Below, one piece after another: positions 2,849 through 42,109 of a stretch of DNA of 64,000 bases. The notes under the pieces were generated by a model, which ran no database searches, had not been told where the DNA came from, and was given only the letters and a program-made list of their open reading frames with translations. The stretch is taken from positions 1-64,000 of the IMG/VR virus record IMGVR_UViG_3300032322_001107. One strand, 5' to 3'. The first letter of the stretch is position 1; every line of letters begins with the position of its first letter. The DNA comes from a virus. A program made the position numbers and the translations under genes.

Positions 2849-4713
2849 TCATCTACAATATTTATAAAAGACAGCGGAATTGGCCAAGCTTCTGTGGAAG
2901 ATTCGCGTTGTTGATTAAGACGGGGGAATCCAATATTACCCCCGCCATGCCAATCTTCAAGAAATTTATACGCAGTAATTTCGGCTCCGTTGTTCCAAGA
3001 AATATTTTTCGGATGGCTTAAAAATTCTACTTCCTCTGATCCATGCTCATAATATTTTGTATAAAATCCATCAGCAAGTGTCGCTTCTCCTTTTTGCTTT
3101 CCCCCTAAAATATAATGTGATTCTGCAAATGTTTGCGGATTTGCTGATGATATTCTATAAAACGATGTTGACTGGCCAAATGTAGACAAAACTCCAGTTT
3201 CTATATTATTTCCAATGGTTGCGGTAAATCTTGATCCATAAAAGCTATATGTCGAATTACTAGATGACCTAGATCCAGTTAATGGTAACACAGCTTGATG
3301 TGTATGCTCCGCAAACCTTGGGGCGCGAATTGGCAAAGAATAGCTTCCACCCCCGTTGTCGGAGGAGTTTAATTTGCAGGCATATTCGACGCTATAATGT
3401 GTAGAAAGAAATTCAATAGGAAATCCTCTTATATAATCAAGACCCTTTCTTGTTATTTCTAAAAATTGTGGAAGCCTTTCTGTAAAAAGGCCAGATGCTG
3501 TTCCTATTGGGTGGTTTGGGTTTGAAAAAGATGAAGATGAAAGATAACCTCCAAATTCTATCAAATCTGTCCATTCTTGTGTTGTTAAAAAAGTTTTCGC
3601 AACTTTTGCTGGGTAAAAATTAATTGTTGTTATTTGTGTAACCCATCCTGTTGTTTCTAATGTTTCAAAAAAACCCTGATTAAATGGGGTGAATTCTCTT
3701 GTGAACGTCCTTGGAGCATTCGTTGTGTATCTTGTTTCTATCGAACCAGCATGGCTATTTCCACCAACAGAAACAACGGATGGAACAAATGGTGAATTTA
3801 CACCTCCAAAAGTAGTTGCCCCAGACGTTCCTGTTGTTGATGATATTTTTTCTGTAGATGGATTTGAGTTGGCCAAGTCCCACTGTGTTATTTCATTTTC
3901 AATAATAGTGCTTGACGTTTTTGTATAGCCAGTTAGGTTAACAAACGATAAAATATCATATGTTTCTTCAACATTAACGTAGGTTGAAGCGTTGCCAAAT
4001 GTAACTTCAGAAGTTGCTGGAGCTATGTTTCCGAATCTTGAGTACCTTCTTCTGGTTGTTTGTCCAAGAGTTAAAATTGTTTCAAAAGAAATCGTTTTCC
4101 ATGTTGGAACATTGACCCAAGAATCAGAAAAAACCGTTGTTGTTGCGGTTCCTTGAGACCACGTTGTTAGCGTTGTAATTGAATTTGCTGTTGTAACCCT
4201 GTAATTGGTGTTTGTTGTTGTGGTATTTTTTCCAAGAATTGTTTCCGTTGTTAGTTCATAAGAAAATAATTCATGCGTAGATCTTGACCAATCAGTGTCT
4301 ACTATTATATCAGAGCATGTTTCGTATCCAGCGGAATCAAAATCTCCGTCCACAATACCAGTATATTTTTCTCCACCAAAAGACACAGACTGTGTTCCGT
4401 TTGAATAATTTATAGTATGTGCAAAAGCTTGAATAAATGAAACGGTGTCTCCTATTGTTCCCTCACAGGCAAAACTAAAGTTTTCATCATCATATTTTGT
4501 GTGTCCTGAAAGAATTTCACTATTAAACCAATAGCTTTCTTTAAGATCATAAAAATTTCTTGTTATAGTTTCATAAAATGCCACCTCTGTTCCCGATGCC
4601 GTTGGAAACGCGCTGAATGTTGTTCTTGTTATTCCACCTTCGTTACTACCTCCAGCCTCTTGATATTCACCAAGAATGTCGCTTTTCTCAACAATCTCTT
4701 CCCAAGTTATCAT
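2845..4713 (-). CDS. Thr/Ser-rich probable virion surface protein, unknown
   Basis: This 622-residue protein is rich in Thr, Ser, Asn and aromatic residues with many short beta-like segments (for example TTTNTNYRVTTANSITTLTTW). It has no signal peptide or transmembrane segment and no enzyme motif that I can see. The composition resembles phage fibre or spike proteins. It is the last gene of a three-gene minus-strand cassette (5586-7961, 4717-5580, 2845-4713), with only three bases separating it from the gene before. The cassette is AT-rich compared with its neighbours. Function is inferred from composition only. Confidence 0.55.
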   Translation of the reverse strand: MITWEEIVEKSDILGEYQEAGGSNEGGITRTTFSAFPTASGTEVAFYETITRNFYDLKESYWFNSEILSGHTKYDDENFSFACEGTIGDTVSFIQAFAHTINYSNGTQSVSFGGEKYTGIVDGDFDSAGYETCSDIIVDTDWSRSTHELFSYELTTETILGKNTTTTNTNYRVTTANSITTLTTWSQGTATTTVFSDSWVNVPTWKTISFETILTLGQTTRRRYSRFGNIAPATSEVTFGNASTYVNVEETYDILSFVNLTGYTKTSSTIIENEITQWDLANSNPSTEKISSTTGTSGATTFGGVNSPFVPSVVSVGGNSHAGSIETRYTTNAPRTFTREFTPFNQGFFETLETTGWVTQITTINFYPAKVAKTFLTTQEWTDLIEFGGYLSSSSFSNPNHPIGTASGLFTERLPQFLEITRKGLDYIRGFPIEFLSTHYSVEYACKLNSSDNGGGSYSLPIRAPRFAEHTHQAVLPLTGSRSSSNSTYSFYGSRFTATIGNNIETGVLSTFGQSTSFYRISSANPQTFAESHYILGGKQKGEATLADGFYTKYYEHGSEEVEFLSHPKNISWNNGAEITAYKFLEDWHGGGNIGFPRLNQQRESSTEAWPIPLSFINIVDD

Positions 4714-7961: not shown

Positions 7962-8100
7962 GGAATCCCGAAAACTTACTCTAAAAAAGGATGGGCGGCA
8001 AGATGATTTTCCGCTTGCAATGGTTAATGATCATGCTAGATTCCAGATTGGAAGGCATTCGTCTTCCTGTTTTCATGTGTGTGGGGCGGGGTCGAGCTAA
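7960..8100 (+). CDS. possible 46-residue ORF before a terminator
   Basis: A small frame starts at ATG 7960 after AGGAGG with a ten-base spacer and ends in the left arm of the terminator hairpin at 8086-8121. The product is basic with a C-terminal 'CFHVCGAGSS'. The AGGAGG and the first codons lie opposite the start of the minus-strand gene (it is antisense to the codons for YPP), so this may be coincidence. It is listed because it would explain why a plus-strand terminator stands here. Confidence 0.2.
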   Translation: MESRKLTLKKDGRQDDFPLAMVNDHARFQIGRHSSSCFHVCGAGSS

Positions 8101-8121
8101 AAACTCGGCCCCGCTTTTTTT
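8086..8121 (+). terminator. rho-independent terminator (plus strand)
   Basis: An 11-bp stem (GCGGGGTCGAG paired with CTCGGCCCCGC, one G-T wobble) with a seven-base loop is followed by seven T residues at 8115-8121. It ends plus-strand transcription coming from the left, although the flanking long genes diverge here. It could end a short transcript or insulate the promoter just downstream. Confidence 0.8.
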
Positions 8122-8127
8122 GAACGC

Positions 8128-8154
8128 TTGACAAGATTGGTTGTCGGATATAAC
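8128..8154 (+). promoter_or_regulatory. predicted promoter for the 8171 operon
   Basis: A perfect -35 box TTGACA (8128-8133) is followed after 15 bases by TATAAC (8149-8154); TAACGA at 17-bp spacing is an alternative -10. Transcription would start near 8161, leaving about ten bases before ATG 8171. It stands directly after a terminator, as expected for an operon-leading promoter. Confidence 0.55.
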
Positions 8155-8170
8155 GAACACATCTACCTAT

Positions 8171-8794
8171 ATGGCATATCAATCCAACCAACCCAAAGCA
8201 CCAGTCCTATCACATTTCACCTTGGCTAAAAACGGGCCGAAGCTCGTAGTCATTAAATCAGCCCCAAAGTGGGTCAAAAATAATTCATTGTGCGTTATCG
8301 AATTGATTGTTGATGGCGTGGCCCATGTGTATTTCACTGAAAACAAAGACATTGCGTCGAAGTTCCAGCAATATGTGGGTAAGTCCGTAGTGCTGATTGC
8401 CTCTGGCAACTCCAAGCAGAAGACCGATTCCATGGAGATTCAGCCCGCTGGGGTTCCTGCTTCCAGTCTGCCCGCAGTCCAAAGCGCCCCGCAACAAGCC
8501 CAGAAGCCCGTAGAACAGGTTATTACGGCCCCAGTCCACAGGGACAAAGAAGCTAAGCAATTCCTTTGTCAGGCGGCAAACCTGATGCGTCTGTGCGTCA
8601 AGAAGGCCAACGACATTGCGGTAGAACTAAACCTTCCCGAACAGCACCGTCAGGGAATTGCGACCACCCTTTTCATTCAGGCAGATCGCCAAGGCCATAT
8701 TTCAGCCATGCCAATTACAGCTTACACCCCCGAACAATTGGGCTTCGGGTCAAGCAAGGCCGAATCCCTGAATAGTCCACAAGCGAATGACTAA
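8171..8794 (+). CDS. possible OB-fold/ssDNA-binding-like recombination accessory
   Basis: The 207-residue protein has a beta-rich N-terminal domain (residues 1-85: LVVIKSAPKWV, LCVIELIVDGVAHVYF, SVVLIASG), a Pro/Gln-rich flexible linker (about 95-120), and a helical C-terminal domain (FLCQAANLMRLCVKKANDIA, then GIATTLFIQADRQG). This plan resembles phage ssDNA-binding or exonuclease-partner proteins, but I cannot name the family. The ATG at 8171 is preferred over an in-frame TTG at 8141 because the TTG lies within the promoter. It leads an operon with a SWIM protein and a RecB/Cas4-type nuclease, which supports a recombination role. Confidence 0.55.
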   Translation: MAYQSNQPKAPVLSHFTLAKNGPKLVVIKSAPKWVKNNSLCVIELIVDGVAHVYFTENKDIASKFQQYVGKSVVLIASGNSKQKTDSMEIQPAGVPASSLPAVQSAPQQAQKPVEQVITAPVHRDKEAKQFLCQAANLMRLCVKKANDIAVELNLPEQHRQGIATTLFIQADRQGHISAMPITAYTPEQLGFGSSKAESLNSPQAND

Positions 8795-9062
8795 CTATGG
8801 AGGATGCGGGGATTCCAGACGAAACCACGGCATCGAAATTCTGTCGCATGATAAGGGATCATTCCTCGTTCAAAGTCGGACGAATCGCGAAGACTACTAC
8901 ATGGTGGAATTCGCTACCGATGAAGTCGGGGATATCACAGGGTGTTCCTGCACTTGTCCAAGCTATCAATTCCGCAAAGGGTGCTTCCACATCCGATACC
9001 TCTGTAAACTCTTGGGCGTCGAAACGCCGAAACCAACAAACAACCAACTAATAGCAGCATAA
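8787..9062 (+). CDS. SWIM-type zinc-finger protein
   Basis: The 91-residue protein contains C55-x-C57-x8-C66-x-H68, the CxC...CxH pattern of SWIM domains, in the context 'CSCTCPSYQFRKGCFHIRYL'. SWIM domains bind DNA or proteins and occur in recombination and chromatin factors. The N-terminal half is a small beta structure. The start at 8787 overlaps the previous gene by eight bases. Its place between an OB-like protein and a nuclease points to DNA recombination or replication. Confidence 0.75.
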   Translation: MTNYGGCGDSRRNHGIEILSHDKGSFLVQSRTNREDYYMVEFATDEVGDITGCSCTCPSYQFRKGCFHIRYLCKLLGVETPKPTNNQLIAA

Positions 9063-14069: not shown

Positions 14070-15032
14070 ATGGCTGAACCAATTCAATTTCCGCAGTCTG
14101 GACAAGGAGCCATATTAACTCCTTCAACCTTGGTTTCTCCCGATTTGCCAGAAGAGTGGGGTGGGCGACCCGCAGGAACATCCCGTAGAGCCATCCGAAT
14201 GCAAGAAGATTGGGATAAGCGCAGAGCCGCAATGCTAGAAGAGCAGCAAACCTCACAACAGATGGATGCACAGCGCAGGCAATTAGCTCTTCAAGAGCGG
14301 GATCAATTTATTCAAGATTCAGAATACAATCGCAAACTAAAAGAATACGAAGCGGAACAAGATATCAGGGGGCAGGCAGAAATGGAATCAAACAACATCC
14401 TTGATTGGCTAGGAGGCCGCGCTGTTGATAATCAAGGAAATCCCATTGCCAAACCAGACCCCAAAACTCCAGAATTTCAAACTGAATTTCTTCGCAGGCT
14501 TTCTGAAAATCCCCTTGGTGCAGAATTGAATAAGGGAATTGTAGATCAATACATGGGCGCTAACAAAACCTATTTGGACGCCCAGCAAACCAAGCAAAGA
14601 GAAGAAGCCGCACTTCTGCGTGAAGAGAGGATGCTTGGTCGCCAATTGGCAGCAGAAGAAAGGGCCAAGGGCAGACAAATTGAAGCAGAAGAGAGGGCGC
14701 AAACACGCGCAGAAAAAAAAGCGGAAGAGTCACAAATAATTGGAATAGATAAGGATATTCGCAGAGAAGAGCTTGCATTGGAAGATGTTGCGGCAAATCT
14801 TGGATTACAACGAGATCAGTCTGGAAGATTTAATATTGGCGGGCTTTCTGATACTCAGAAAAAAACATTTAGGGCGGCTGAGAATCGCGTTAGACTTTTG
14901 GAGCAAGACAGGGCACAATTGCAGGGATTTATGTTTGATACAGAGGCAGATGCCCAAGCGGCAATTGAGGCCAAAACAGTTCCCAAGGGAGCTATTATAT
15001 TTATTAATGGCAAAAAAGCTATCAACCGATAA
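14070..15032 (+). CDS. coiled-coil internal-virion-type protein
   Basis: A 320-residue charged protein dominated by a coiled coil: residues about 45-105 (RRAAMLEEQQTSQQMDAQRR) and 170-280 (EEAALLREERMLGRQLAAEE and onward). The C terminus holds a small folded end (GFMFDTEADAQAAIEAKTVP, GAIIFINGKKAI). Its stop shares one base with the start of the giant gene (TAATG), so the two are translationally coupled. A scaffold or ejectosome partner of the giant protein is plausible. Confidence 0.55.
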   Translation: MAEPIQFPQSGQGAILTPSTLVSPDLPEEWGGRPAGTSRRAIRMQEDWDKRRAAMLEEQQTSQQMDAQRRQLALQERDQFIQDSEYNRKLKEYEAEQDIRGQAEMESNNILDWLGGRAVDNQGNPIAKPDPKTPEFQTEFLRRLSENPLGAELNKGIVDQYMGANKTYLDAQQTKQREEAALLREERMLGRQLAAEERAKGRQIEAEERAQTRAEKKAEESQIIGIDKDIRREELALEDVAANLGLQRDQSGRFNIGGLSDTQKKTFRAAENRVRLLEQDRAQLQGFMFDTEADAQAAIEAKTVPKGAIIFINGKKAINR

Positions 15033-18000
15033 TGCCGATAGAATATCTAGATGATATCGAAGAGGATATTACAGAAGCGGCGGACACTACTCCTGTAGAG
15101 CAACCGCCCGTGGCTGGCATTTCTGAGCCAGTCGCACCAGAACCCTCTGGAGAGTTTGGCGGAAGGATTGAATACATCGAAGAAGAGCCTCTAGAAATAG
15201 AGCCTCCAAGAGATAATAGCTGGGACACACTCCGAGGTTTTGAGGTTTCGATGCGGCAAGTTCCGCAGTTGGCTTACGGGGTTGCGGGGTTGGTCGGTGA
15301 AACCGCAGAACAGCTTACAGGTTACGGAGAAAGTCTTCGGGATTTTGGATTCAAGGGATACCAAGATTGGGCGCAAAGCATGGAGCCAATCTCCAAGGAA
15401 ACTGACGATGTTACGGTGGCTTGGCAACGCGCAAAAGAAGGAGATGTTGGGGCTTTGGTGGATTGGGCACAATATGGAATTGGCTACGCTCTTGGACAGC
15501 TTGGAGAGACGGCGGCGGTTGCTGTATTGGGCGGGGTCGCTGGTGGTGCAGCGGGTGCGGCTGGTGGCCCAACAGCCGTTCCAGCGGCGGCGGGTGGCGC
15601 AGTAGCAGCGGCGGCTGGAAAACAAGGATTCAAGGCTCTTGCCCAAAATCTTGTTGAGAAGGCCATTGCCAATCAGGCAACCAAGATTGTCACCAAACAA
15701 GCCCAAAAAGAAGGCGTTGAACTAACCGCCGAGCAATTAGCCAAACGTGCATCCCAAGAAGCCGTTAAGCGTCAGGCTGGAAAAGAGATTGGATCAAATG
15801 CCGCCATTTTTGCCAATGCTGTCGGTATGCAACTTGGTTCTATTTACGGATCTGCCGAGGAACAGGCGCGAGCAGAGGGACGGGAACTTACGGGAGTTGA
15901 CTTGGCTCGCATATGGGGAACTGGCGTTGCCACTGGCGGTATAGAAGGCGTTGTTGATAAATTTGGTTTGGATCTTTTGAAGGGCAAGCTTTCGGACAAA
16001 CTTCCTGCTGGCAGGTTGGCTGGAGCAGCGGTGGCTGGCGGTATCGGAACTGTTGGTGAGGCGGCAACCGAAGCCGTTCAAACCGTTGGAGAGCGTTTTG
16101 GTGCAGGAAAAGATATCCTTAGTGATGAGGCTATCAATGAATACATCAATGCTTCCGCCTTGGGAGGTTTGGGTGGCGGGGCTATTGGTGGAGTTGGTGG
16201 ATTTATCTCTGGCAACCCCAAGGAAAACGCCGCAGCCAAAGCCAAAGTATCCTCTGAGGCAAATAAAGAGATTGCTCCCGCAAGCGCCGAAACCGTAGCC
16301 CGACAAGCCGATGCCGTCATTGCTGAGACAGTTCAAGAAACCCCCGAACAGCGAGTGGCCCGTCTCCAAGAAGAAGCTACCGCAGCAGCAGGAATAGAAC
16401 TAGAAGAAGAAGCTCCTGTTTCGGGGTTGCCCCCACAACCCGTCACCACGCCCGTAGAACCCACAGCAGAAGGCGAGGTAGCCCCTGTAGAGCCAGTAGT
16501 TGAGCCAGCAGTAGCAGAGCCGCAGCCTGTCGCAGAAGTCGCGCCAGCAGACCAGCCATCGCCAAATCTTGCGCCCCGCGCCGAAGCAGCAGTGGAGGCA
16601 CGGCCAGTCCGCCAAGAGGGCGAACCTATTGGAGACTTTCGCAATCGGAAGGATGCATGGGATGAACAATATGGCACAGATCGTCGCGGCGGGCGAACCC
16701 ACAATGATGATGGAACTCCGTATCAGCCAACCGTTTTTGACGAAACAATATCACAGGTAAATGCGTCTGGTGTCATTGGCACAGATGAGGATGCGATGTC
16801 TGCCGCTATTGGAACAAGATCCGAACTGGAGGCTGGCAATGCCGTCAAGGATCTTGTGAATGCTGGATGGGTGTGGGATGCGGCACAAAACCGCATGGTC
16901 AACCCACAAAATCCCGAACAAAGACCCAGCGATGGACTCGTAGAAGCTAGGCAGGCACCAGCCCCTGTAACGCCAACTGCCCCCGCAGTGACTCCTCCCG
17001 CCGAGGTGGCTCCTGTTCCACAATTAGCACCAATAGAAGTAGAACCGCAAGTTGCCGCACAAAAAGCTATCGATGCCTCTAGACTTTCTGGAAGCACATT
17101 AGGCATGGACAGGGCCAATCAAGGAGTCGAACAGGCAAGAGAGGTTGCTTATGATGCGAAGAGAGAAGCATCACTTCCAAAAACACCGATTGATATTGCA
17201 ATTCAAACATGGGAGGTGGCTGGTAATGAAACAAAATATGGAGAACCAAAATTTGCTTCTGGGGAGTTGGGCTTTGCTGTTTCAGGTGGGTACGATAAAT
17301 CCACAAATGAAGTAAAACTTAGTAACAACCCAAGAGAATTTAGCTCCACTTCTGGAGACTCAGCGTTGACCCCAAGATCTGTTGTGCGCCACGAACTTGG
17401 ACATTGGGCATTGTTTAATGCGGCAGACAACGACTTGGTTCGTCGCCTGTTTGAGTGGGCTGACACCGCTGACAAAACTGGAATACTTAATCCTTGGCAT
17501 GGAGGAAAAGCTGGAGTTGCTTATCCTAAAACAAAATTCGATTCACGCGATGAATTGGTTTCTGAAGCATATTCCATATGGAAATCTGGAGGGAGTGTTC
17601 CAAATAATGTTATCCCGCTCTTACAGGATCTGGACGCACTTATTCCAACCAATCTTCAAAATGAGGCATTGCAATTTGCAGATTCTCATTCAGAAAAACT
17701 TGGTGAACGCCCATCTGCTTCTCAGGTATTAAACGCGGATCGTCTACGCCGAGTAGTAAGAGCAGAACAAGCCCCAGAAGACGTTCCTTCCTTGGTGGAT
17801 GCGGGGTTGGTCGAGGTGTATAAAGATCAACCAGTGCTTACCGAGGCAGGGATTGCCCAGTTGCCCGAAGCAGAACGCCCAAGGCTGAACCCCGAAGCCC
17901 GAAAGATCCAGATCGACACAGGATCAAACGAAGTAGTAGCCGAAGCCATCGCGAAAAATCTTCGTATCGGGGTCGATCAGGTTGGAACTGGTGTGCGTAT

Positions 18001-21000
18001 GCCCGCAGGCTGGACTCTGGTAGAGGATATCTATGTGCCGCCAGCCCCGCAGGAAGTTGTCCCAGAAGCGCCTGTTGCGCCAAAAGTTGAGCCAGAAGCC
18101 ACTGAAGAAGAGCCAGCCAAAGTAGATCCTATCGACACGTTTAAGGGTGGTATTCGGGATTCGGGATTTAAATATCTAACATATTCAGATTTCAGAAGGG
18201 AAAACAAAACCCAAGACTGGGAAAAAGAAGGTGGGGTAACAATAGACGAAAGCTACTATCCTACGGCAGTTGTTGGCGATACCAGAGTAGCATTCGGAAC
18301 CAACGGACTCTATGTATTCAAAAATCAAGTAAAAGAGCTTTACGAGTCCGATGTTGATGAAAACGGAAACACAATATTTACCATCCAGAGAATCGTTACC
18401 CCTGAAGACAAGCGTGGACAGGGGAGTGCGAGTAAGGCGCTGACCCAGATCACAGATGCGGCGGACAAGGCTGGCCTAACACTCCAGCTTCAGCCCGCAG
18501 TAATCAGCACACTTGTCGGCAAAGGCGGCAAGGCTCTCAACGCAAAGCAACTTGTGGATTGGTATAAACGAAATGGATTTGTCCAGAAGTTTGATGGCAG
18601 CGATGCCGTCCTTATCAGAAAACCAGTGACTTCAGCGGTTCCAGAGGTGATTCCGCCAAGACCAGCAGATGTGGAGCCAGAACCCGCCGCAGAACAAGAG
18701 CTTCAATCCGTTGTCGATAAGTATCAAACATCCGAACCAACCGCTAGGATGATACTTGCCAACCTTAATTTTGAAGCCAAAGAGGCTGGAGTTATTCCAG
18801 ACGGGTGGGTTGTTGAAACAATAGGTGGTATAAAGACGGCACTTTCTCCCGTGTTTCAAAAAACAAGACGGGACATTCAAGTTGCAATTAGAAAATTTAC
18901 AATACGTGAAAGAGGTGCATTGAGTGCTAGATTTTTCAAGGAAGGATGGATTAATGAAGACCAAAGCAAGGAATATCTCCGTGAAGCAATTAGCCAAAGC
19001 TCTCAAGAGCGGGTCACAGCCGCCGAAGCCGAGGCGAACGAGAGATTCGACGCTCTTGTTGAAAGAATTGTCGGAGAAAACAGAGCAAACATTTCAAGTG
19101 TTGTCGGAGAAGTATCAAAGCCGACAATTGATCTTGAGGCAGAAGAACAAGCCAGAGCAGAAAAGCCATCAGTATCTCCATCAGAAGTATTAGATCCGAA
19201 TGAAATAGAGTTCATGTCGGCAAGACAGGCTTTGAAAAAGCTTGCCGAATCCAATGTGATTAGTTTCAGCGATAGTGGAGCCAGCGGAAAAGCGCGGTGG
19301 AGATATACTGGAAAAATGGTAAAGCCTCAATATGTGAGGCTTCAAGAAGCGGCCTCTGTTCTTGCAAAAACTAATCTTCGCACCCTTGATGCCGAAAGAA
19401 TAAACATCAGTGGAGATAAAAGCGGGAGAGCAAACAGAGCCTACGCTGGAGATATATTTATACCAAGAACAGAGGGCAGTGATAGACGCACTGCATATCT
19501 TGAACCATGGGTTTTGTTGCATGAGGTTGGGCACACCCTTACGTCTGATGCATTTCAGAAATATGTTCCAGATAAGGGATTGATTGGTGCTGATTATTAC
19601 AAACAGCTTAAAGACACACTAAAGAACAAGAAGGTTCCAAGAGAAGTAAGGCGGGCTATCACGCTTTACATAGACACAATCAAAGCACTTGGATTTGAAA
19701 AAGAATATTTCAAAAAGGGAGGACTTGCCAGCAACAACGCTGATCGCGGATTGAGGAACGCAGCAGCAAGAACGTCAAATAAATTAATCAATCCGTTTAC
19801 TGGAAATGAAATAACACGGGATGACATGTATGCGCTTGCCGACATGCATGAGTTTTACGCGCAAGCTTGGAATAGCGAGTCCTTCCAAGACATTCTCAAG
19901 CAGATCAAGGTTGAGCCACAAAGAAGTGCATTCCAAAAGTTTGTAGAGATCGTCAAAGACATTTTTGGATTTGAGTCGGACACAATGGCATATGCCGTGA
20001 TCGATACCTCTCTCAGACTTGCCTCGCTTGAAGCACCAACAGACACTGGAGCTACTATTGAAAGCAGGATTAAAACGCAAAAAGAATTTCGCGCCGTCAA
20101 GGAGTTGCCGCGAACAAAAATGCGTTGGACGAATTTTGGCAACGGAAAATACGGAGGAGACCGAGTCAAAATGTCCAGAAACAAGTTTGTAAAACTTGGA
20201 TATGATATGGCCCATTTTACAATCACCAAAGGATACAAGGGTGTTTTCGGCGGTGGTGGTAATCAATGGTCTGTGCGTGTTTCCATAGAAGAGTTTTACA
20301 GCAAGGGTAAAAAAGCTAACCAGCTTTTGCCGCAGACTGAAATTTTTGTAAGGACATTTGATAGCAAGGCCACAGCCGAAGAATTTGCTGAAAGGCTTGC
20401 GTCTGATGTCAATGGGATGGTTAATGAAAAATACGGAGCCTTGAAGAAAGGGGCACCACAACCACCGACTACTCGCGGAAAGCCCGCTCCAAGACCAAGA
20501 TTTGCCCCCGCCCCCGAAGTAAGAGAATCCCGCAGAGAAGACGCCATCCCCACCTTCTCCGAGGGAAGCCCCGAAGCCACAACCCTTTCTACTATGGCAG
20601 CAGCAATGGCCAAAGTGGATGGCGCATCCGAGGCCAAGCCAAACCCCGAAAACAAACCCACCTACAAGATCAGCGAGATAGCCTCCGTCTGGATGGATCA
20701 GGGTGGAGATGTTCGCCAACTCCAAGACCTTATCTCAGAGAATACCAATCTTACCCCAACCAATGCAGCGAAGGTGGCCAATGCCATTGCCAAGCAATAC
20801 GATATCCAGCAGTCCATTGCTACGGCCTTCATCGAAACCCAAACGGGATTGTCTGTTGAGGCACTACCCGAAGGTGTAACCCTTCCCAAGGAGGTTGACC
20901 CTGATCGTCCGCGCCCCGTCATGCAACGCCTTTTTGATGTATTTATGGGTGTGCGCGTTAAACCAGTTAAGATTACTGGTGATGAAAAGGCATTGCTTAA

Positions 21001-24000
21001 AAGTCAAATTCGTCTAAAGGCCGCAGCCAATCGTGCGGCAAAACAGGAGCAGCAACGCACCGCAGACGAGGTTGTTGAGATTATCAAATCCATGGAGCTT
21101 CGCGGCCCCGTTCGTCCGAAACAAGCCCAAGCCCTTGCCAAACGTGCAGCCAAAGTCATTTGGACTAGCGAGAAGTCCATGGAGAGCTTTGTCGAATACG
21201 CTGCCAAGGTGGTAGAGAACGCCAACTATGATGCCGATCTTCGCGAGGCCAAGGCAGCACAGAAACGCGCCAAGGAACTTTCCAAACAGAAGAGAGTCGC
21301 TATGAGTCCGCAGCGCCTGATCTTGCAACAAATCGGAAATGTCGCAGTTAACAAGCTGGATGATCCGCGCATGTTTGCCGAGATGATCAACTACTACTTG
21401 CGTGGATTCAAGGATGTGCGTTCTCCTGATTATGTAGTTGTTCCTGATGAAGAAATCACGGGCTACATTTCTCAACTTGAAACAGAGTCTGTTAAGGATC
21501 AAGCCGAGGTAGAGCGCGAGACCAACGAAAGGCTTGCCCGCAAATACGACCTTGATCCAAATACTATTCCAGAGTTGATGAGCCTTATCAACATCATTGA
21601 AGAGATTGAAGGCAGGGAGAATCGCGAAGCCTTGGAGTCCATCCTTACAGACAAAGCAATCGAAACCCAAGACGGGTTGCGCGGCTACGACACAACCGCG
21701 CTTACCAACACTCAAAAGAAATTGGTCGAGTCAATGCTTGGTGTGGATCTCAAATCCATCAATAACCAAGAGAAGCAAATGTTTATTCGTATTGCCAACA
21801 ATATGATTTACAACAATCAGACCAATGGCGCGGAATACTTTGTGGCTACAGCCAAGGGTCAGCAGAACGCTCGCAAGGCGGCACAGGATTCAAAAATGAT
21901 CCAACGCAACAAGGCTTGGATTCCTCTTATTCCTTCATTCGGATCTTTGAAACTTCAGGAAACCCTTCGCAACTTCTCTTTGGAATTGCAATCGGTAGCC
22001 GACACCTTCCGCAACGTCTTCGGAAAAGACTTCATGGCCAAGGCTTACGAGATGATGGGCATGTTGGATTTGAACGAGGGATTCACCAAGGCCAATAACA
22101 CCATTGATGAAATACAAGATCTGATGGCAGAGTTCCACCAAGGCAACGAAAAGACATACGGTGACGCAGCCCGCAATCAAGACGGCATTCTTTCTGAAGG
22201 TGTGGCTGGATTCTTGATCCAAGAATTTCCGTTCAAGGATGAAGCAACTTCAATTCAGCAACGCCGAAACCTGATCAATGAATATATCGCCAATGCCCGT
22301 GAGTCGCGCCAAAAAGACCGTGTGGCTATGGCAGATCGCGTTGAGGCAATCCTAAACAAAGTTGATGGGGCTTCTGTTCAAGAGATCTTGAACAACATGA
22401 AGCGCGAATACCGCCCGAACTATGATTCTCTCATGTGGTATAAGGATGTTCTGTTCCCGAAATACAAAGACTTCCTCAAGCAGTTTGACGAGAACTTCAA
22501 CGATCAGGCCAATAACTACGATAGCCCCAACTATCTTCCGATTGCCTTCACTTCGGCTGGCCCAGCCTTGGCACTTGGCCCCGAAGACGTAAGTATTGCC
22601 AACTCAATTTCTCTCCAGCCCAAACAGTCGGTCTATACGATCAAGCGTCAGGATTACACCACGCTTCCAAAAGACAAGGACGGCAACCCTAAAGAAATTG
22701 AATTCAATCTTCGTCGCACCGCATTCAATAGCCTGTCAGACCAGATCAATAAGGCTTACACCAACCCTGCTTGGCAGCAGATTTTTGCGTTTATGAAGAC
22801 GCCAGAATCCATTGAGTTCTTTGGGGACAAAGCTAATCGTGATTTCTTTGTAGATCGCCTCAATAGGTTGCGAGCTTCCAGAGCAAGGCGTGGATCGGTA
22901 AGTGGAGGAGCTTTGGAAAAAGCACTTGATTCTTTCAGTATTATCTCCAGAAAGCTTGGCACTGGCATCGCGCTTGGTGGTGTATTCCAATGGATTAAGC
23001 AGCCCCCAGACCAGCTTCTTACGGCACTTGGAAGCGGAGGACGAGCAGATCTTCTGGCTAAAAACATTGCTCCATCTACACAGAAAGCGGCTAGAGAACT
23101 ATTAAATCAGTTTTCGATTGGAAGGCGCGGCGACTCATCTGCTGGTTATAAATACATTAACCAGATGGAGGGCCATCAAAGCCGCATGGAGCGTTATTTC
23201 TCAGAAAGTAAATGGGAGCAGGCCAAGGAACAAGGCGGAAAGATTGCTGATGTTTGGATGGTGGCTCTGAAGAAATCCGATTTCATTTCGGCCTCTGCTG
23301 CATGGATGACTTACTACGAAGGAGAGTTAAACAAGAACGACATCAAGATTGATGATTGGGCCAAGGAAGCCGAGCTTGTCAAAACCGATCCTGTCAGACG
23401 TCAAGCGGCAGCGTATGCCGAGCAGATGACCGACATCTATCAGGGTTCTAGCGACCCGACATCCATGGCAACATTTGCCCAGAGCGGTAAAACTGGATGG
23501 GAGAACTTCACCAAGGCTTTGCTTGTTCCGTTCAACTCATTTGCCATCCAGCAACGCATGAGGCTTTACTCTGATGCCAGAGACGCACTTAATGGAACCA
23601 GTGGCGGCAAGGGAGGACTAGCTGGAACCATTGGTGGCCTTATCCTTTTCCATACCACAAAACGATTTGTTCTTCCTGTTATTTCTGGAGGAACCGCAGC
23701 CATTCTTTACGGAATGCTGGGAGTTGACATGGAAGAGCCAGACGAAGAGAAGCAGAAAGAGATGGCCGACAGGAACTGGCGTCAGTTCTTGGCCGACATT
23801 ACTGGCAACTTGCTGGTTGGCGGAACCCCGCAGCTTGTTGAAAATAGGACGATTGAAGCCTTTAACTATGCTTCTTACATGGTTGGTTTACAGCTTGAGA
23901 GCGAAACTGTCATGGATGAAAACGGAGAGATTATGTCATTTGACAAGTATTCCAAAGAGCGTTCTCCATTCTATCGCTACAAGTCTTACGATAACGCCAT

Positions 24001-24265
24001 GAGTCTTGGCATGTTTGATATCGGATTTGATCAAGCAAAAGAAACAGCCCTTCAAACCAAGATGCTGATGGATCGGGACGAGATGGAAATGTATACTCCA
24101 GAAGAACAGCGACTGCTTTACTTCTCCGCCCTTTCAGAATGGCTCTATCTCATGCGCCTCAATGACACAGACTTCGCTCGCATTGTGAAAAAGGCCCGCC
24201 GCGATATGATCAAAGCAGCCGAAGAACGCGAGAAGGAATTGGCCCGTATCCGCGCTGGACGCTAG
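15032..24265 (+). CDS. giant polyvalent protein with two zincin domains and a GNAT domain
   Basis: The 3077-residue protein is the largest product here. In order: an acidic N terminus; Ala/Gly-rich hydrophobic stretches (about 140-210 and 330-390); a Pro/Glu/Ala-rich linker (about 400-700); a zincin domain with HELGH at 787-791 and a following 'SRDELVSEA'; a GNAT-like acetyltransferase domain with RGQGSA at 1128-1133 and 'WYKRNGF' after it; a second zincin with HEVGH at 1497-1501 and, further on, 'MHEFYAQAW'; a long helical part; and a hydrophobic segment near 2865-2900. This is the make-up of phage large polyvalent proteins, which are packaged and ejected with the DNA. Substrates are unknown. 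It is the last gene of the 12245 operon; its TAG overlaps the stop of the convergent gene in CTAG. Confidence 0.8.
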   Translation: MPIEYLDDIEEDITEAADTTPVEQPPVAGISEPVAPEPSGEFGGRIEYIEEEPLEIEPPRDNSWDTLRGFEVSMRQVPQLAYGVAGLVGETAEQLTGYGESLRDFGFKGYQDWAQSMEPISKETDDVTVAWQRAKEGDVGALVDWAQYGIGYALGQLGETAAVAVLGGVAGGAAGAAGGPTAVPAAAGGAVAAAAGKQGFKALAQNLVEKAIANQATKIVTKQAQKEGVELTAEQLAKRASQEAVKRQAGKEIGSNAAIFANAVGMQLGSIYGSAEEQARAEGRELTGVDLARIWGTGVATGGIEGVVDKFGLDLLKGKLSDKLPAGRLAGAAVAGGIGTVGEAATEAVQTVGERFGAGKDILSDEAINEYINASALGGLGGGAIGGVGGFISGNPKENAAAKAKVSSEANKEIAPASAETVARQADAVIAETVQETPEQRVARLQEEATAAAGIELEEEAPVSGLPPQPVTTPVEPTAEGEVAPVEPVVEPAVAEPQPVAEVAPADQPSPNLAPRAEAAVEARPVRQEGEPIGDFRNRKDAWDEQYGTDRRGGRTHNDDGTPYQPTVFDETISQVNASGVIGTDEDAMSAAIGTRSELEAGNAVKDLVNAGWVWDAAQNRMVNPQNPEQRPSDGLVEARQAPAPVTPTAPAVTPPAEVAPVPQLAPIEVEPQVAAQKAIDASRLSGSTLGMDRANQGVEQAREVAYDAKREASLPKTPIDIAIQTWEVAGNETKYGEPKFASGELGFAVSGGYDKSTNEVKLSNNPREFSSTSGDSALTPRSVVRHELGHWALFNAADNDLVRRLFEWADTADKTGILNPWHGGKAGVAYPKTKFDSRDELVSEAYSIWKSGGSVPNNVIPLLQDLDALIPTNLQNEALQFADSHSEKLGERPSASQVLNADRLRRVVRAEQAPEDVPSLVDAGLVEVYKDQPVLTEAGIAQLPEAERPRLNPEARKIQIDTGSNEVVAEAIAKNLRIGVDQVGTGVRMPAGWTLVEDIYVPPAPQEVVPEAPVAPKVEPEATEEEPAKVDPIDTFKGGIRDSGFKYLTYSDFRRENKTQDWEKEGGVTIDESYYPTAVVGDTRVAFGTNGLYVFKNQVKELYESDVDENGNTIFTIQRIVTPEDKRGQGSASKALTQITDAADKAGLTLQLQPAVISTLVGKGGKALNAKQLVDWYKRNGFVQKFDGSDAVLIRKPVTSAVPEVIPPRPADVEPEPAAEQELQSVVDKYQTSEPTARMILANLNFEAKEAGVIPDGWVVETIGGIKTALSPVFQKTRRDIQVAIRKFTIRERGALSARFFKEGWINEDQSKEYLREAISQSSQERVTAAEAEANERFDALVERIVGENRANISSVVGEVSKPTIDLEAEEQARAEKPSVSPSEVLDPNEIEFMSARQALKKLAESNVISFSDSGASGKARWRYTGKMVKPQYVRLQEAASVLAKTNLRTLDAERINISGDKSGRANRAYAGDIFIPRTEGSDRRTAYLEPWVLLHEVGHTLTSDAFQKYVPDKGLIGADYYKQLKDTLKNKKVPREVRRAITLYIDTIKALGFEKEYFKKGGLASNNADRGLRNAAARTSNKLINPFTGNEITRDDMYALADMHEFYAQAWNSESFQDILKQIKVEPQRSAFQKFVEIVKDIFGFESDTMAYAVIDTSLRLASLEAPTDTGATIESRIKTQKEFRAVKELPRTKMRWTNFGNGKYGGDRVKMSRNKFVKLGYDMAHFTITKGYKGVFGGGGNQWSVRVSIEEFYSKGKKANQLLPQTEIFVRTFDSKATAEEFAERLASDVNGMVNEKYGALKKGAPQPPTTRGKPAPRPRFAPAPEVRESRREDAIPTFSEGSPEATTLSTMAAAMAKVDGASEAKPNPENKPTYKISEIASVWMDQGGDVRQLQDLISENTNLTPTNAAKVANAIAKQYDIQQSIATAFIETQTGLSVEALPEGVTLPKEVDPDRPRPVMQRLFDVFMGVRVKPVKITGDEKALLKSQIRLKAAANRAAKQEQQRTADEVVEIIKSMELRGPVRPKQAQALAKRAAKVIWTSEKSMESFVEYAAKVVENANYDADLREAKAAQKRAKELSKQKRVAMSPQRLILQQIGNVAVNKLDDPRMFAEMINYYLRGFKDVRSPDYVVVPDEEITGYISQLETESVKDQAEVERETNERLARKYDLDPNTIPELMSLINIIEEIEGRENREALESILTDKAIETQDGLRGYDTTALTNTQKKLVESMLGVDLKSINNQEKQMFIRIANNMIYNNQTNGAEYFVATAKGQQNARKAAQDSKMIQRNKAWIPLIPSFGSLKLQETLRNFSLELQSVADTFRNVFGKDFMAKAYEMMGMLDLNEGFTKANNTIDEIQDLMAEFHQGNEKTYGDAARNQDGILSEGVAGFLIQEFPFKDEATSIQQRRNLINEYIANARESRQKDRVAMADRVEAILNKVDGASVQEILNNMKREYRPNYDSLMWYKDVLFPKYKDFLKQFDENFNDQANNYDSPNYLPIAFTSAGPALALGPEDVSIANSISLQPKQSVYTIKRQDYTTLPKDKDGNPKEIEFNLRRTAFNSLSDQINKAYTNPAWQQIFAFMKTPESIEFFGDKANRDFFVDRLNRLRASRARRGSVSGGALEKALDSFSIISRKLGTGIALGGVFQWIKQPPDQLLTALGSGGRADLLAKNIAPSTQKAARELLNQFSIGRRGDSSAGYKYINQMEGHQSRMERYFSESKWEQAKEQGGKIADVWMVALKKSDFISASAAWMTYYEGELNKNDIKIDDWAKEAELVKTDPVRRQAAAYAEQMTDIYQGSSDPTSMATFAQSGKTGWENFTKALLVPFNSFAIQQRMRLYSDARDALNGTSGGKGGLAGTIGGLILFHTTKRFVLPVISGGTAAILYGMLGVDMEEPDEEKQKEMADRNWRQFLADITGNLLVGGTPQLVENRTIEAFNYASYMVGLQLESETVMDENGEIMSFDKYSKERSPFYRYKSYDNAMSLGMFDIGFDQAKETALQTKMLMDRDEMEMYTPEEQRLLYFSALSEWLYLMRLNDTDFARIVKKARRDMIKAAEEREKELARIRAGR

Positions 24266-32801: not shown

Positions 32802-33053
32802 TCAAAGCGAATCCCCAGCCCGTGCAACCTTCGCTCTGACAATGGCGTTGTGCATTGCGTTTCGTTTATCAATCGCAACGTCAAATTTCAGGTTTAATTT
32901 ATCGTATTCTTTCGCGAGGTGTTGCGCTGTTTCGGACTCTCCGCCCGAATAATCGTCTGCAAGAGCAATTGCGGCCCCTGCAATCTTCATTGCTTCAAAG
33001 AATAGATCTTGCAAGGCGGAATCCCCTTGCCCGTTTTCATGGTCTTTTTTCAT
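32802..33053 (-). CDS. small helical protein, unknown
   Basis: An 83-residue protein, helical throughout (LQDLFFEAMKIAGAAIALAD, then ETAQHLAKEYDKLNLKF). ATG 33053 starts 'MKKDHENGQGDS'; the longer frame upstream would include the GTGACAAGG element and is rejected. No family recognised. Confidence 0.55.
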   Translation of the reverse strand: MKKDHENGQGDSALQDLFFEAMKIAGAAIALADDYSGGESETAQHLAKEYDKLNLKFDVAIDKRNAMHNAIVRAKVARAGDSL

Positions 33054-33131
33054 TTTGGTTTTTAGTTGGGGATTTTCCCCGTGTTGCCCCCTTGTCACAC
33101 TCAAAGGGGCAAAGGCGGGAAAGACAGCCCG

Positions 33132-33992
33132 TCAGTGAACACCGATAGCAATCGGGACGCCCCGAAACTTTTCAGAGCCACAGGCATGACCTGACGGGGT
33201 GCAATCGCCACACTTGCCAGAGCAAACAAAAACCCGTTTGCCAGCCTGTTCCCTAACGTCCCGCGCATAATCCGCGAAACCCTCATTCCGCTTTGATTGA
33301 TAGGCTCGCCCGTGATCCTTGGCGGTATTCACCGCGATGAATTCTCCCCGTGCAATGGGAAGTTTCGCCACCGCTTCTTTCTCAGCGTCTGAACCATTGC
33401 CACCGCTGGAAAGGTTCAACAGGTAGTTAGAAGGCCAGCGTCCGCCCGTTGCCTGATCATAAGACAGAAGCAAGCGCCAGCTTTTAGAGTAGCCGTAAAC
33501 CTGAAGATCAGGACGGGCGAAACAAAGGCGCATCCAGAACGCGAGGATTTCGGGGGACGCGAAGTCTCCATCAACATACAAGCGGACAATGGCATTTTGT
33601 GGAAGCTTCATCCAAGCCGCGACTATTTCATCCCGCCCCTCTTTAGTTCGGAGGCGAATACTGTTGACCAGTTGGCGCATGAAAGCCGCAGGATAGCGCC
33701 ATGCCTTGAAACTGTAGCAGAATCCCCCCATTAGCTCACCATTTGCCCCGTAAAGGCATTTACCAGCTTGGGGGCAATCAATCCCCGCGAGACTGGAGAA
33801 CGCATAGAATGGAAGCTTGGAATTTCCACCCTCCGCAAAAACGGCGGGAAGCTTCCCCGAATCGATGCGTTTAAAGCAGGATTGCCAACCGATCCCGCGA
33901 GACATAAAGAGATCGCGCAAAGGTTCAACGGATTGCGCTTCCACGCATTGCAGAGCCCCCGAATAGAGGGAAAGAGTGAATTGTTTTTTCAT
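33132..33992 (-). CDS. GP88-like cysteine-rich protein
   Basis: The 286-residue protein follows the GP88 family (mycobacteriophage Gp88 type): 'CPQAGKCLYGANGELMGGFC' early, 'YPAAFMRQLVNSI', the 'IVRLYVDGDFASPEIL-x-FW' block and 'VYGYSKSW'. The C terminus adds a cysteine cluster 'CSGKCGDCTPSGHACG'. The conserved cysteines may bind a metal or iron-sulphur cluster. The family occurs in phages and its activity is unknown. It stands first in its transcript. Confidence 0.75.
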   Translation of the reverse strand: MKKQFTLSLYSGALQCVEAQSVEPLRDLFMSRGIGWQSCFKRIDSGKLPAVFAEGGNSKLPFYAFSSLAGIDCPQAGKCLYGANGELMGGFCYSFKAWRYPAAFMRQLVNSIRLRTKEGRDEIVAAWMKLPQNAIVRLYVDGDFASPEILAFWMRLCFARPDLQVYGYSKSWRLLLSYDQATGGRWPSNYLLNLSSGGNGSDAEKEAVAKLPIARGEFIAVNTAKDHGRAYQSKRNEGFADYARDVREQAGKRVFVCSGKCGDCTPSGHACGSEKFRGVPIAIGVH

Positions 33993-34272: not shown

Positions 34273-34644
34273 TTAATCCATCCCCGATTCGGGTTGCAAG
34301 TAGGGAGCCGAACCGATGCCATAAGCCGCCGCTAGGCGAGCAAAGGCAAAATCCAGATCCCCGCTTTGTGCGCGATTCCTGCGCAATGCATAGACCTTCG
34401 CCGCATTAGTCCGATCAGGATGACGGCAAAGCTCATAGAAAGCTTCGCGAAGGCAATCTTGAACCTCCACGCCCCGCGCCCGAACCCGAACCACATTGCC
34501 AAAAACTTCCTTCGTAGCCTCGCCCCCGAACAAGGCAAAGTCCAAGGCATAGATGGCCGACCATCTACGCTCGCTAGTGGATTCCTGATCATTACGCACG
34601 GCGGAAAGGTTCCCCGTGCCCGTTGTGGTGCATGTGTTTTCCAT
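34273..34644 (-). CDS. helical protein, unknown
   Basis: A 123-residue protein with a helical core (SERRWSAIYALDFALFGGEA, VRARGVEVQDCLREAFYELC) and a 'RTNAAKVYALRR' motif. Its start lies next to the divergent control region at 34645-34864. No family recognised; an early regulator or replication accessory is possible but unsupported. Confidence 0.55.
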   Translation of the reverse strand: MENTCTTTGTGNLSAVRNDQESTSERRWSAIYALDFALFGGEATKEVFGNVVRVRARGVEVQDCLREAFYELCRHPDRTNAAKVYALRRNRAQSGDLDFAFARLAAAYGIGSAPYLQPESGMD

Positions 34645-34864
34645 ACGGGGACAATATCGGGCGGGACTAACTAAAACGCAACTAGTTTTTTCAAACGAAT
34701 TGATAGAGCCTAATTAGAATTATTACAAATAATACTTGGCAATGTGCGGGAGGGGGGTAGGACACGAATGTCCGAGGGGGTAAGACATCGATGTCCTATG
34801 CCCCAGAAAATCAATTGAAAATAAAACTTGCCTGCGGATTGATCCCGCTCTATTTTTGCCCCTG
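34645..34864. promoter_or_regulatory. divergent control region with tandem operator-like repeats
   Basis: The spacer between the minus-strand gene start (34644) and the plus-strand gene start (34865) holds: an AT dyad ATTATT-ACA-AATAAT (34719-34733); two 21-base direct repeats at 34753-34773 and 34776-34796, each beginning GGGGGTA and containing GACA...TGTC, matching at 17 of 21 positions and spaced 23 bases apart; and a promoter for the 34865 gene (TTGCCT at 34828, 17 bases, TATTTT at 34851). For the minus strand TTGTAA/TATCAA with 17-bp spacing is possible. It has the look of an operator-controlled divergent promoter. Confidence 0.6.
34828..34856 (+). promoter_or_regulatory. predicted promoter for 34865 gene
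   Basis: TTGCCT (34828-34833), a 17-base spacer, and TATTTT (34851-34856). The ATG at 34865 is eight bases beyond the -10, so the transcript would be nearly leaderless, and there is no Shine-Dalgarno sequence. Confidence 0.45.
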
Positions 34865-35218
34865 ATGAACGCATCACCTACACACACACAAACGGGCGCG
34901 GGGGCAACTGCCGCGCAGACAGAGGCTAACTTTAAGGCCACGCTCGCGGGTCTTTTAGCGACTGGTAAAACCGAATCAGAGGCTTATGATATCCTCGCGG
35001 CAGACGGGACAGGGGTTTATTTTTATGACATCCTGCCCCCGAAAACTGTTTCTGTTTCGGAAGCGGAATTCCGCTCTATTGCCAGCACGAAGAACGCCCC
35101 CGCTGTTCGCATGCTCCAAAAGGCTGGGGGAACGGAGGATTCGTTTTCTGTAGTTTATAGGGCATGGGGGCGCGGCCCCGTCATTGACCTGATCCATGAC
35201 TTTGTCCCTATCTTCTAG
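34865..35218 (+). CDS. monocistronic small protein, unknown, possible regulator
   Basis: A 117-residue protein with an Ala/Thr-rich N terminus (HTQTGAGATAAQTEANFK), a helical 'TLAGLLATGKTESEAYDIL' that could be part of a helix-turn-helix, and a C-terminal part ending 'GRGPVIDLIHDFVPIF'. It is the only plus-strand gene between two minus-strand blocks and has its own promoter and terminator. Tandem dyads lie just upstream of it. A transcriptional regulator or a stand-alone accessory gene would fit; sequence alone does not decide. Confidence 0.55.
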   Translation: MNASPTHTQTGAGATAAQTEANFKATLAGLLATGKTESEAYDILAADGTGVYFYDILPPKTVSVSEAEFRSIASTKNAPAVRMLQKAGGTEDSFSVVYRAWGRGPVIDLIHDFVPIF

Positions 35219-35241
35219 GCGCGACCCAGTCTAGTCTTAAG

Positions 35242-35275
35242 ACCCCGTCAGGCGAAAGCTTGGCGGGGTTTTTCT
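35242..35275 (+). terminator. rho-independent terminator
   Basis: ACCCCGTCA pairs with TGGCGGGGT (one wobble) across a ten-base loop, followed by a run of T residues ending near 35273. It lies 23 bases after the 34865 gene and ends its transcript. Confidence 0.85.
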
Positions 35276-35278
35276 TTT

Positions 35279-35883
35279 CGGGTTTCCCCCCTAGCTTCTC
35301 CCGCTGTTCCCCCCTGCATGGTGCGCGTTCGCGTTGCCTTGCATTGTGCGCTTATTCTGTAAGCTTCCGAGGGTCATCATAGCGGACGCCTAATCAAAGC
35401 GTCTCATATGGCCGTATAAGCGGAGACTCATCTATCAGGTCAGGTGCATGGGGCAGGATGGTGCGACAACAGCGAACCAGCTATCAGTGCGGACGGGTGG
35501 ACGGGACGCGCAGGACAGCCAGCCGATAGACGCGAACCCACTCGCAGATCACAGACCCCACCACACCCGTCTCACCCCCGACCTTCTCTTGGCGCGGGCA
35601 CTGCGACTGGGAAAATACCCCCTCTCGAAAATTTTCTGTGCAAAAGTAACCCGTCAAGTAATAATTTATTAGGAACGCTACTACGCTATGGGACGCTATT
35701 TGAGCGTGGTATAGCGTGGACGCTATCGCGCTATCCGCCCTTATAGAGGGGCGGTAAAGCGTAGCGTTGCTTTAATAGGGAATCGTCTTATTAAATCTTG
35801 CGCCCACTTTCTTTAATAGCCCCCACCCCCGTCTTTTCTCTTTATGGAGAACCCCCTACCACCTTGTTTGAATGAACCCCGCT
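35279..35883. other. non-coding stretch of 605 bases
   Basis: No convincing gene is seen here. It holds the 13-mer GTCATCATAGCGG at 35373-35385 (also at 32411-32423), an iteron-like cluster at 35674-35768, and AT-rich blocks on both sides of that cluster (35659-35672, 35770-35795). This is the largest non-coding region in the window and the best place for a replication origin. Confidence 0.6.
35674..35768. repeat. iteron-like ACGCTAT repeats, candidate replication origin
   Basis: Within 95 bases, ACGCTA or ACGCTAT occurs at about 35675, 35683, 35693 and 35720, with a variant GCGCTAT at 35728, and in inverted form (AGCGT, ATAGCGT, AGCGTAGCGT) at 35703, 35711 and 35757-35767. A six-base stem CCGCCC/GGGCGG (35735-35754) follows the copies. 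AT-rich tracts flank the cluster. The arrangement resembles iterons with an adjacent unwinding element, bound by an initiator; the winged-helix protein at 42712-43233 is a candidate binder. Confidence 0.5.
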
Positions 35884-36225
35884 TTAAATATTTTTCTCTG
35901 AAATGTTTTCGGAGATCTTTATGTTATGGGATGTTCCGTTGGAGAACTGGATGCATACCCGTTTTTTGACGGTGGTTGTTTCGGTGATTGAGGTGATTCC
36001 CAGCCAGTTTAGGAGTAGATTGTGTCGGCGTTTGCCCCAGATTTTGCCATTGTTGATCGCTATTTCTCCCTTTGCTAGTCCATCCAGAACACGGGCTTTG
36101 GTGATTATCCCCATTCTTCGGTGGAGGCTGACTCTACAGGTGGGAGCCAGTCCTTCTAGTTCGGGTGTAGCGTCTATTGATTCTTGTTCCCAAGGTTCTG
36201 GTTTGCGGGATTTGGTCGTGGTCAT
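35884..36225 (-). CDS. small basic protein, unknown
   Basis: A 113-residue protein; residues 30-75 (VSLHRRMGIITKARVLDGLA, then GKIWGKRRHNLLLNWLG) look like a DNA-binding domain, and the end is beta-like (KKRVCIQFSNGTSHNIKI). No named family. It is the last gene of the minus-strand block, next to the candidate origin. Confidence 0.5.
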   Translation of the reverse strand: MTTTKSRKPEPWEQESIDATPELEGLAPTCRVSLHRRMGIITKARVLDGLAKGEIAINNGKIWGKRRHNLLLNWLGITSITETTTVKKRVCIQFSNGTSHNIKISENISEKNI

Positions 36226-41575: not shown

Positions 41576-41751
41576 TGCTCAAGCAATACTTCCTCTTTAA
41601 GCTTTTCGGCTTCGGGGTCGGGGGCGATGCACATCATCAGTGCTTGGCGGGCTTTTTCCAGTTGTCTTTCTTTTAGTTCCAGTAACGCCTCCATAGTCAT
41701 CATTGGAGCCTCTTGTTTGAGATAGGCTGGATAAATTCGTCCCACTGTCAT
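41572..41751 (-). CDS. small helical protein, unknown
   Basis: A 59-residue protein (MTVGRIYPAYLKQEAPMMTM, then a Lys/Glu/Arg-rich helix). It is joined by ATGA overlaps to the 41748 gene before it and the 41183 gene after it, which supports it despite its size. No family recognised. Confidence 0.6.
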   Translation of the reverse strand: MTVGRIYPAYLKQEAPMMTMEALLELKERQLEKARQALMMCIAPDPEAEKLKEEVLLEQ

Positions 41752-42059
41752 TTGATGATTCCTTCTTCACGGGCAATGGCCTCAATCTGACTCACATACT
41801 CGCGGGTACAATTGAATTGTTCGGCAACGGCAGTAAAGTTCATTTCGGGATTGGCCATGAGATGGCCCAACACCTTGAACGCCCTTCCCCCGTTGGACAG
41901 ACGCCTCTTGGTGGTTTTCTTCCGCCTCGCCCGAATGCCAGTCCGCTTCAACGCCGAAGCCATGGCATGGTAGCTTGATCCGTGTTTTACGGCCAGTTCG
42001 CCAATGGTGATTTCGGGGTTTTCTTGAATTTCAGTAGGTAGAATGGTTGTATCGATCAT
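41748..42059 (-). CDS. helix-turn-helix DNA-binding protein
   Basis: The 103-residue basic protein has two helix-turn-helix-like segments: 'TIGELAVKHGSSYHAMASAL' and 'FTAVAEQFNCTREYVSQI', linked by a basic stretch (RARRKKTTKRR). ATG 42059 is preferred. It is a plausible regulator. It stands next to the inverted TTGAC/GTCAA elements at 42071-42109. Confidence 0.65.
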   Translation of the reverse strand: MIDTTILPTEIQENPEITIGELAVKHGSSYHAMASALKRTGIRARRKKTTKRRLSNGGRAFKVLGHLMANPEMNFTAVAEQFNCTREYVSQIEAIAREEGIIK

Positions 42060-42070
42060 ATGATTATATA

Positions 42071-42109
42071 TTGACACTTAAACCTAGCTGTTGTTCAATA
42101 TACGTCAAA
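42071..42109. promoter_or_regulatory. inverted TTGAC / GTCAA elements upstream of HTH gene
   Basis: The short spacer between the HTH gene start (42059) and the HNH gene end (42112) contains TTGACA on the plus strand and a GTCAA further right, with an ATTATA (TATAAT on the minus strand) at 42063-42068. Both a minus-strand promoter for the HTH gene and an operator-like inverted repeat are possible. Confidence 0.3.

Follow-up and report, generated by a model that had tools for sequence, protein, structure and literature searches.

A swappable accessory-gene cassette in a phage genome and a covarying hairpin, probably a shared expression signal, at the starts of unrelated genes

Single accessory genes that carry their own promoter and terminator, lie between conserved genes and are missing in relatives are known as phage morons, and to our knowledge classical morons share no common start module. 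In MS2, an RNA phage, the coat protein binds a translational operator that folds as a small, purine-bulged hairpin around the start codon. The nearest described system to the one analyzed here is that of the Start-Associated Sequences (SAS) of Cluster K mycobacteriophages, in which SAS and extended SAS (ESAS), short conserved elements at translation starts across gene families, are virtually absent from the host; their function is unproven and a role in translation is suspected (PMC3203893). A class of leaderless mRNAs has the AUG at or near the 5' end and CA-rich sequence after it, and CA repeats downstream of the AUG enhance leaderless translation (PMC9031893).

The DNA analyzed here, a window of 64,000 nt, is part of a viral record of 72,849 bases. 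Between blocks of minus-strand genes it contains a lone plus-strand gene of 117 codons (P0001, 34865-35218) that begins with ATG and encodes the N-terminus MNASPTHTQTGAGATAAQ followed by an orphan remainder. A predicted near-leaderless promoter (34828-34856, plus strand), composed of TTGCCT (34828-34833), a 17-nt spacer and TATTTT (34851-34856), ends 8 nt before the ATG; it is weak, agreeing with the consensus at 8 of 12 positions, and was missed by a generic promoter scanner because of this score. A predicted intrinsic terminator with a 15-pair stem and a subsequent T run (35239-35272, plus strand) follows the gene and is the strongest of the region. The first-pass annotation had pointed out the lone gene, the promoter eight bases before its ATG and the strong terminator, and all three were recovered, the gene from the open reading frame and its sequence, the promoter from its sequence and the same layout in relatives. 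It had overlooked a predicted divergent, leftward near-leaderless promoter (TTGCGT-N17-GATATT, 34653-34681, minus strand), which ends 8 nt before the ATG of N123, the first gene of the leftward operon; in relatives this operon promoter also faces away, with GATATT, 8-9 nt and then ATG. The P0001 protein had no match in Pfam, PHROG or PADLOC, and AlphaFold2 run on the single sequence gave no confident fold (pLDDT 46). A homologue search detected no homologue among INPHARED phages and in IMG/VR. Elsewhere in the window, a single open frame of 3077 codons occupies 15032-24265, with no family assigned.

Eight related viral contigs (L003-L010) were found by way of the neighboring gene N286 (33132-33992, GP88 family) and were aligned around the locus. 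The cassette, gene plus terminator, is present in four of the nine contigs (the window, L004, L005 and L009) and absent from L003, L006, L007, L008 and L010, in which the cassette terminator was not found either. The cassettes of L004, L005 and L009 begin with the same promoter architecture and have an identical terminator core, the terminator thus traveling with the cassette; the encoded proteins of the four contigs are wholly different beyond the first ~20 residues. From this comparison it is evident that P0001 is a swappable accessory cassette of the presence/absence type. The earlier suggestion of an accessory (moron) gene is supported by a promoter and a terminator of its own, as judged from sequence and conservation, and by the state of the same site in close relatives, where the gene is absent in five and replaced in L004, L005 and L009. 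The site is best read as a slot for accessory, moron-like genes, flanked on one side by the divergent promoter region with its operators and on the other by a non-coding block, both of them conserved. Each occupant of the slot would combine a cargo gene of any kind with a near-leaderless promoter and a standard start module in front and a terminator behind.

The long non-coding block (35290-35900) separates the convergent ends of P0001 and of the gene at 35884-36225 and is conserved among the relatives, with 88% identity to L003 over 639 bp and near-invariant stretches such as CCGTATAAG; it is possibly an origin or another DNA site. Part of it (35290-35660) was considered as a structured RNA and rejected, as consensus folding did not exceed that of column-shuffled alignments on either strand (z of +0.6 and +1.1), and a search of 34640-35950 against Rfam at a relaxed threshold gave nothing plausible. 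In L004 (about 8280-8840), L005 (about 7830-8540) and L008 (about 4170-4670), predicted HNH-type endonuclease-like genes are inserted at approximately one point of this block, as expected of homing elements.

The first ~20 codons of P0001 encode a weak pattern, G-x-G...A, that is common to many unrelated proteins. When the genome of the window and its relatives were searched with this peptide motif, P0001, N123, N83 and their counterparts were found to share it near the N-terminus. Folding of the starts and comparison of the arms revealed under the peptide pattern a hairpin in which ACGG precedes a stem of 6 bp and a G bulged out on the 3' side separates this stem from 2 bp and a short loop. 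The hairpin sits 23-32 nt past the A of the AUG, its distance to the start varying by 9 nt. In P0001 (34892-34916, plus strand) it has ACGG, the 5' arm GCGCGG, the loop GGGCAACTG and the 3' arm CCGCGC, and is covered by a match of covariance model R1 (34882-34920, E=4e-8). N123, the second tagged gene (MENTCTTTGTGNLSAVR; 34273-34644, minus strand), has a hairpin at 34592-34633 (minus strand; R1, E=3e-8) whose stem GCACGG/CCGTGC is compensated against that of P0001, and the operon-internal N83 (MKKDHENGQGDSALQ; 32802-33053, minus strand), with no promoter of its own in position, has one at 33007-33044 (minus strand; R1, E=4e-10) with the stem GCAAGG/CCTTGC. Further differing but pairing stems are CCAAGG/CCTTGG, GAACGG/CCGTTC, GCAGGG/CCTTGC and CCACGG/CCGTGG. 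In the minimum-energy fold of a longer stretch of P0001, from -8 onward, the hairpin region pairs instead with bases just before the ATG; these alternative partners would lie outside the mRNA if its leader spans only a few bases. Rfam at the gathering threshold had no curated covariance-model match in the window. A small hairpin, GGGGAAAATCCCC or GGGAAACCC, occurs about 15-30 nt before the starts of operon-internal tagged genes, in the window at 33068-33080 (minus strand) and also in L003, L009 and L024. A second exchange slot is seen after N286, where the tagged gene at 32802-33053 has counterparts in L003 (10931, plus strand) and L009 (10635, plus strand) with the start kept and different cargo.

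Among the copies of this genome and its relatives, which had been picked by the peptide motif alone, all have a perfect 6-bp stem except that of L004, with one mismatch. In an alignment of 27 instances (A2), with loops shortened to eight bases so that it was free of gaps, 99.5% of the cells pair and five of the eight pairs change on both sides; there are 21 both-side cells as compared to 4.2 after shuffling, and controls slid along the sequence pair at 31-56%. G-U pairs occupy 8 cells, which fits RNA better than a DNA palindrome. Because the GCGCGG stem was part of the sequences by which many rows of A2 had been picked, the independent evidence consists of the peptide-selected set and of an open-arm scan of IMG/VR, prompted by the use of both arms in the pattern that had yielded some instances. 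The scan prescribed the class of the 5' arm and the end of the loop but let the four outer bases of the 3' arm vary, and a match was called start-linked when an A/C-rich start lay 15-33 nt upstream. Full complementarity was seen in 32 of the 33 start-linked matches, which belong to three arm classes, and three of four bases were complementary in the remaining one; most of the 13 other matches were not fully complementary. Compensatory changes are thus found across independent instances, as in a cis-acting structured RNA.

The hairpin could nevertheless be a by-product of codons if the N-terminal peptide itself were a tag by which unrelated phage proteins are targeted, processed or packaged. 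The internal proteins of T4 are a known example of unrelated cargo with N-terminal tags, G-x-G...A is nearly invariant in 35 proteins, and the spacing of the peptide is constant in both registers of the hairpin. However, the codons that form the stem change in concert (x = A, Q, T, N, H, R; y = A, L, V), the stem stays paired although different residues (Q, H, R, L, G, E, D) follow it, and the residues upstream are of low complexity (T/N/Q). The choice among synonymous codons is also constrained: when twelve genes were recoded synonymously with the protein held fixed, the full stem came up in just 2-10% of the variants of each gene, values that are not simply to be multiplied because the genes are partly related. 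A tag at the protein level is therefore regarded as unlikely.

No Shine-Dalgarno core was found between -16 and -4 of 40 tagged starts, a scan at whose edge a few tagged genes have GGGGGAG abutting the start. The 21 nt after the ATG of these starts are about 85% A or C, and the A/C content is 0.84 in tagged starts versus 0.60 in the other genes of this phage (p=6e-8). A promoter agreeing with the consensus at 8 or more of 12 positions, mostly ending 9 nt before the ATG, precedes 19 of the 40 tagged genes, as compared to 5.6% of shuffled upstream sequences. About 13 of the 40, including N83, lack a promoter at the expected place and presumably lie inside operons, suggesting that the element is tied to the start codon and not to the promoter. 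Taken together with the A/C-rich start lacking a Shine-Dalgarno sequence and with covariation that tolerates G-U pairs, this tie points to an mRNA element acting at the translation start; we infer that the active form is RNA rather than DNA and that its role is translational. On the sequence evidence we consider it reasonably likely that the locus combines a cassette slot with a shared start module whose covarying hairpin works on the mRNA at the start of translation, and the start hairpin is probably a shared signal that controls expression of the tagged genes. The module would comprise the A/C-rich start without Shine-Dalgarno sequence and then the hairpin, in which the ACGG 5' of the stem and the GG/CC pairs are conserved and a G is bulged out on the 3' side. 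The hairpin may either be bound by an RNA-binding factor of phage or host that co-regulates all tagged genes or act directly on the initiating ribosome. The conservation of the GG/CC pairs, the bulged G and the 5' ACGG in an otherwise variable stem would suit recognition by a factor, and no partner protein for the hairpin was found in this analysis. An insulator model, in which the hairpin keeps the start unfolded, was rejected as start accessibility in silico was 0.71 for both native and recoded sequences.

The hairpin might alternatively be an antitermination site of the nut or put type, recognized by RNA polymerase during elongation near the beginning of each transcript. Its position in many tagged genes, about 30-60 nt past the presumed transcription start, resembles that of nutL and put sites. 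Yet the hairpin goes with the start codon and is present also in genes with no promoter in position, and the cassette has its own strong terminator directly after a single gene, and we give this explanation little credence. There is very little chance that the start module is instead a DNA site for recombination or exchange through which cargo genes move: at a single genomic position the cargo behind the tag does differ abruptly, for instance behind N286 (N83, L003b, L009b), but orientation and reading frame relative to the ATG are fixed, the compensatory changes include G-U pairs, and no recombinase was identified near the site.

Upstream of the cassette, two operator-like dyads, GGACA-CGAA-TGTCC and AGACA-TCGA-TGTCC (34753-34796), lie within 21-bp direct repeats (34753-34773 and 34776-34796) that are 81% identical and 23 bp apart from start to start, with GACA-N4-TGTC in each; an AT-rich imperfect dyad (approximately 34710-34731) lies between the divergent promoters and is recognizable in relatives, for example as AATTGGAATAATTCCAATT in L003. 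Repeats and AT dyad agree with what the first-pass annotation had described; its interpretation of them as the operators of a regulator encoded by P0001 is not supported. With three mismatches allowed, 0.04 chance matches to the dyad pattern are expected per window, a figure that is indicative only because the pattern was derived from the sites themselves; stronger evidence is the presence of GACA-N4/5-TGTC at the same place in seven of the nine related phages. The pair of GGACA..TGTCC and AGACA..TGTCC is found in the window, L005 and L006, a single AGACA..TGTCC in L010, and TGACA..TGTCA in L004, L007 and L008; in L003 and L009 another repeat, ATATGATGATAT, takes this position. The exact tandem pattern had no match in IMG/VR. 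The dyads do not overlap the promoter of P0001 and are found about 73 and 96 bp upstream of the gene's presumed transcription start. As they are kept without the cassette in L006 and L010 and beside an unrelated protein in L005, they are not the operator of P0001, and the alignment of the relatives and the leftward operon's own promoter assign them to the divergent promoter region, where they probably bind some regulator of the divergent promoters. A helix-turn-helix (HTH) protein encoded nearby, at 41748-42077, was considered as their reader and rejected, as its identity follows phylogeny and not dyad class or alleles. That P0001 is a regulator which reads the tandem dyads and sets a decision is very unlikely, for although the dyads precede the gene and the protein is a small orphan, they are not its dedicated target, identical dyads occurring with other cargo or no such gene, and the protein has neither a DNA-binding family match nor a confident fold.

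In IMG/VR the tag was found at the start of about 45 genes of uncultivated phages that are unrelated in their remaining sequence. Covariance model R1 detected one to three copies per viral record, three of them in the window's own genome, and no convincing copy in the record of L010. Among 37 tag-bearing or related records, many of which are fragments, a relative of this phage's terminase was present in only 7 and an N286 relative in 8; several records of about 40 kb (L011, L029, L055, L061, L063) also lack relatives of both, which suggests that the start module probably extends beyond one phage lineage. The GCGCGG variant of the tag was not found in 84,980 GTDB species genomes, and cultured phages yielded only weak chance matches, in GC-rich phages. 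Cargo families that could be named are an ArdC antirestriction protein (L015) and DUF6874, with one case each, and phrog_1273 with three; most cargo has no family. Primase, helicase and terminase were uninformative as clues to the host.

Like SAS, the element described here is repeated at the starts of genes of different families in phage genomes. However, SAS is a 13-bp sequence forming an extended ribosome-binding site ahead of the start, whereas the hairpin lies inside the coding region, 23-32 nt downstream; moreover, the inverted repeats of ESAS do not support RNA pairing, in contrast to the covarying pairing found here at starts without Shine-Dalgarno sequences. The near-leaderless AUG and the A/C-rich sequence after it resemble leaderless mRNAs, in whose description a downstream hairpin is absent (PMC9031893). 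Compared to the MS2 operator, which is also a small hairpin with a bulged purine near a phage start codon, the present one belongs to a dsDNA phage, is placed 23-32 nt downstream, occurs in many genes and has no known binder. The locus resembles a moron in its layout and differs in that unrelated cargoes carry one common start module. No description of an in-ORF covarying hairpin of such kind was found in a word-based search of incomplete literature. It is possible, and suggested here only tentatively, that the start module, an A/C-rich near-leaderless start plus the covarying hairpin behind it, represents a novel type of cis-acting RNA in phages. Universal and placed within the ORF, it would let uncultivated phages bring accessory genes of any sort under one translational control circuit that has a dedicated trans-acting factor.

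Accessory genes such as those for antirestriction proteins must work at once after being swapped between phage genomes, and equal control of expression for diverse cargo would be accounted for by a start module that the genes have in common and that contains a conserved RNA structure. Model R1 provides a sequence handle for unknown accessory genes, including possible anti-defense genes, in uncultivated phages, and the start module makes translation starts without Shine-Dalgarno sequences in phages directly testable. Upstream of tagged genes in L012, L013, L018, L023, L026, L027 and similar contigs, the promoter spacers hold differing palindromes, among them ATACGC..GCGTAT and AAGGCAA..TTGCCTT, which suggests lineage-specific operators over the same near-leaderless promoter.
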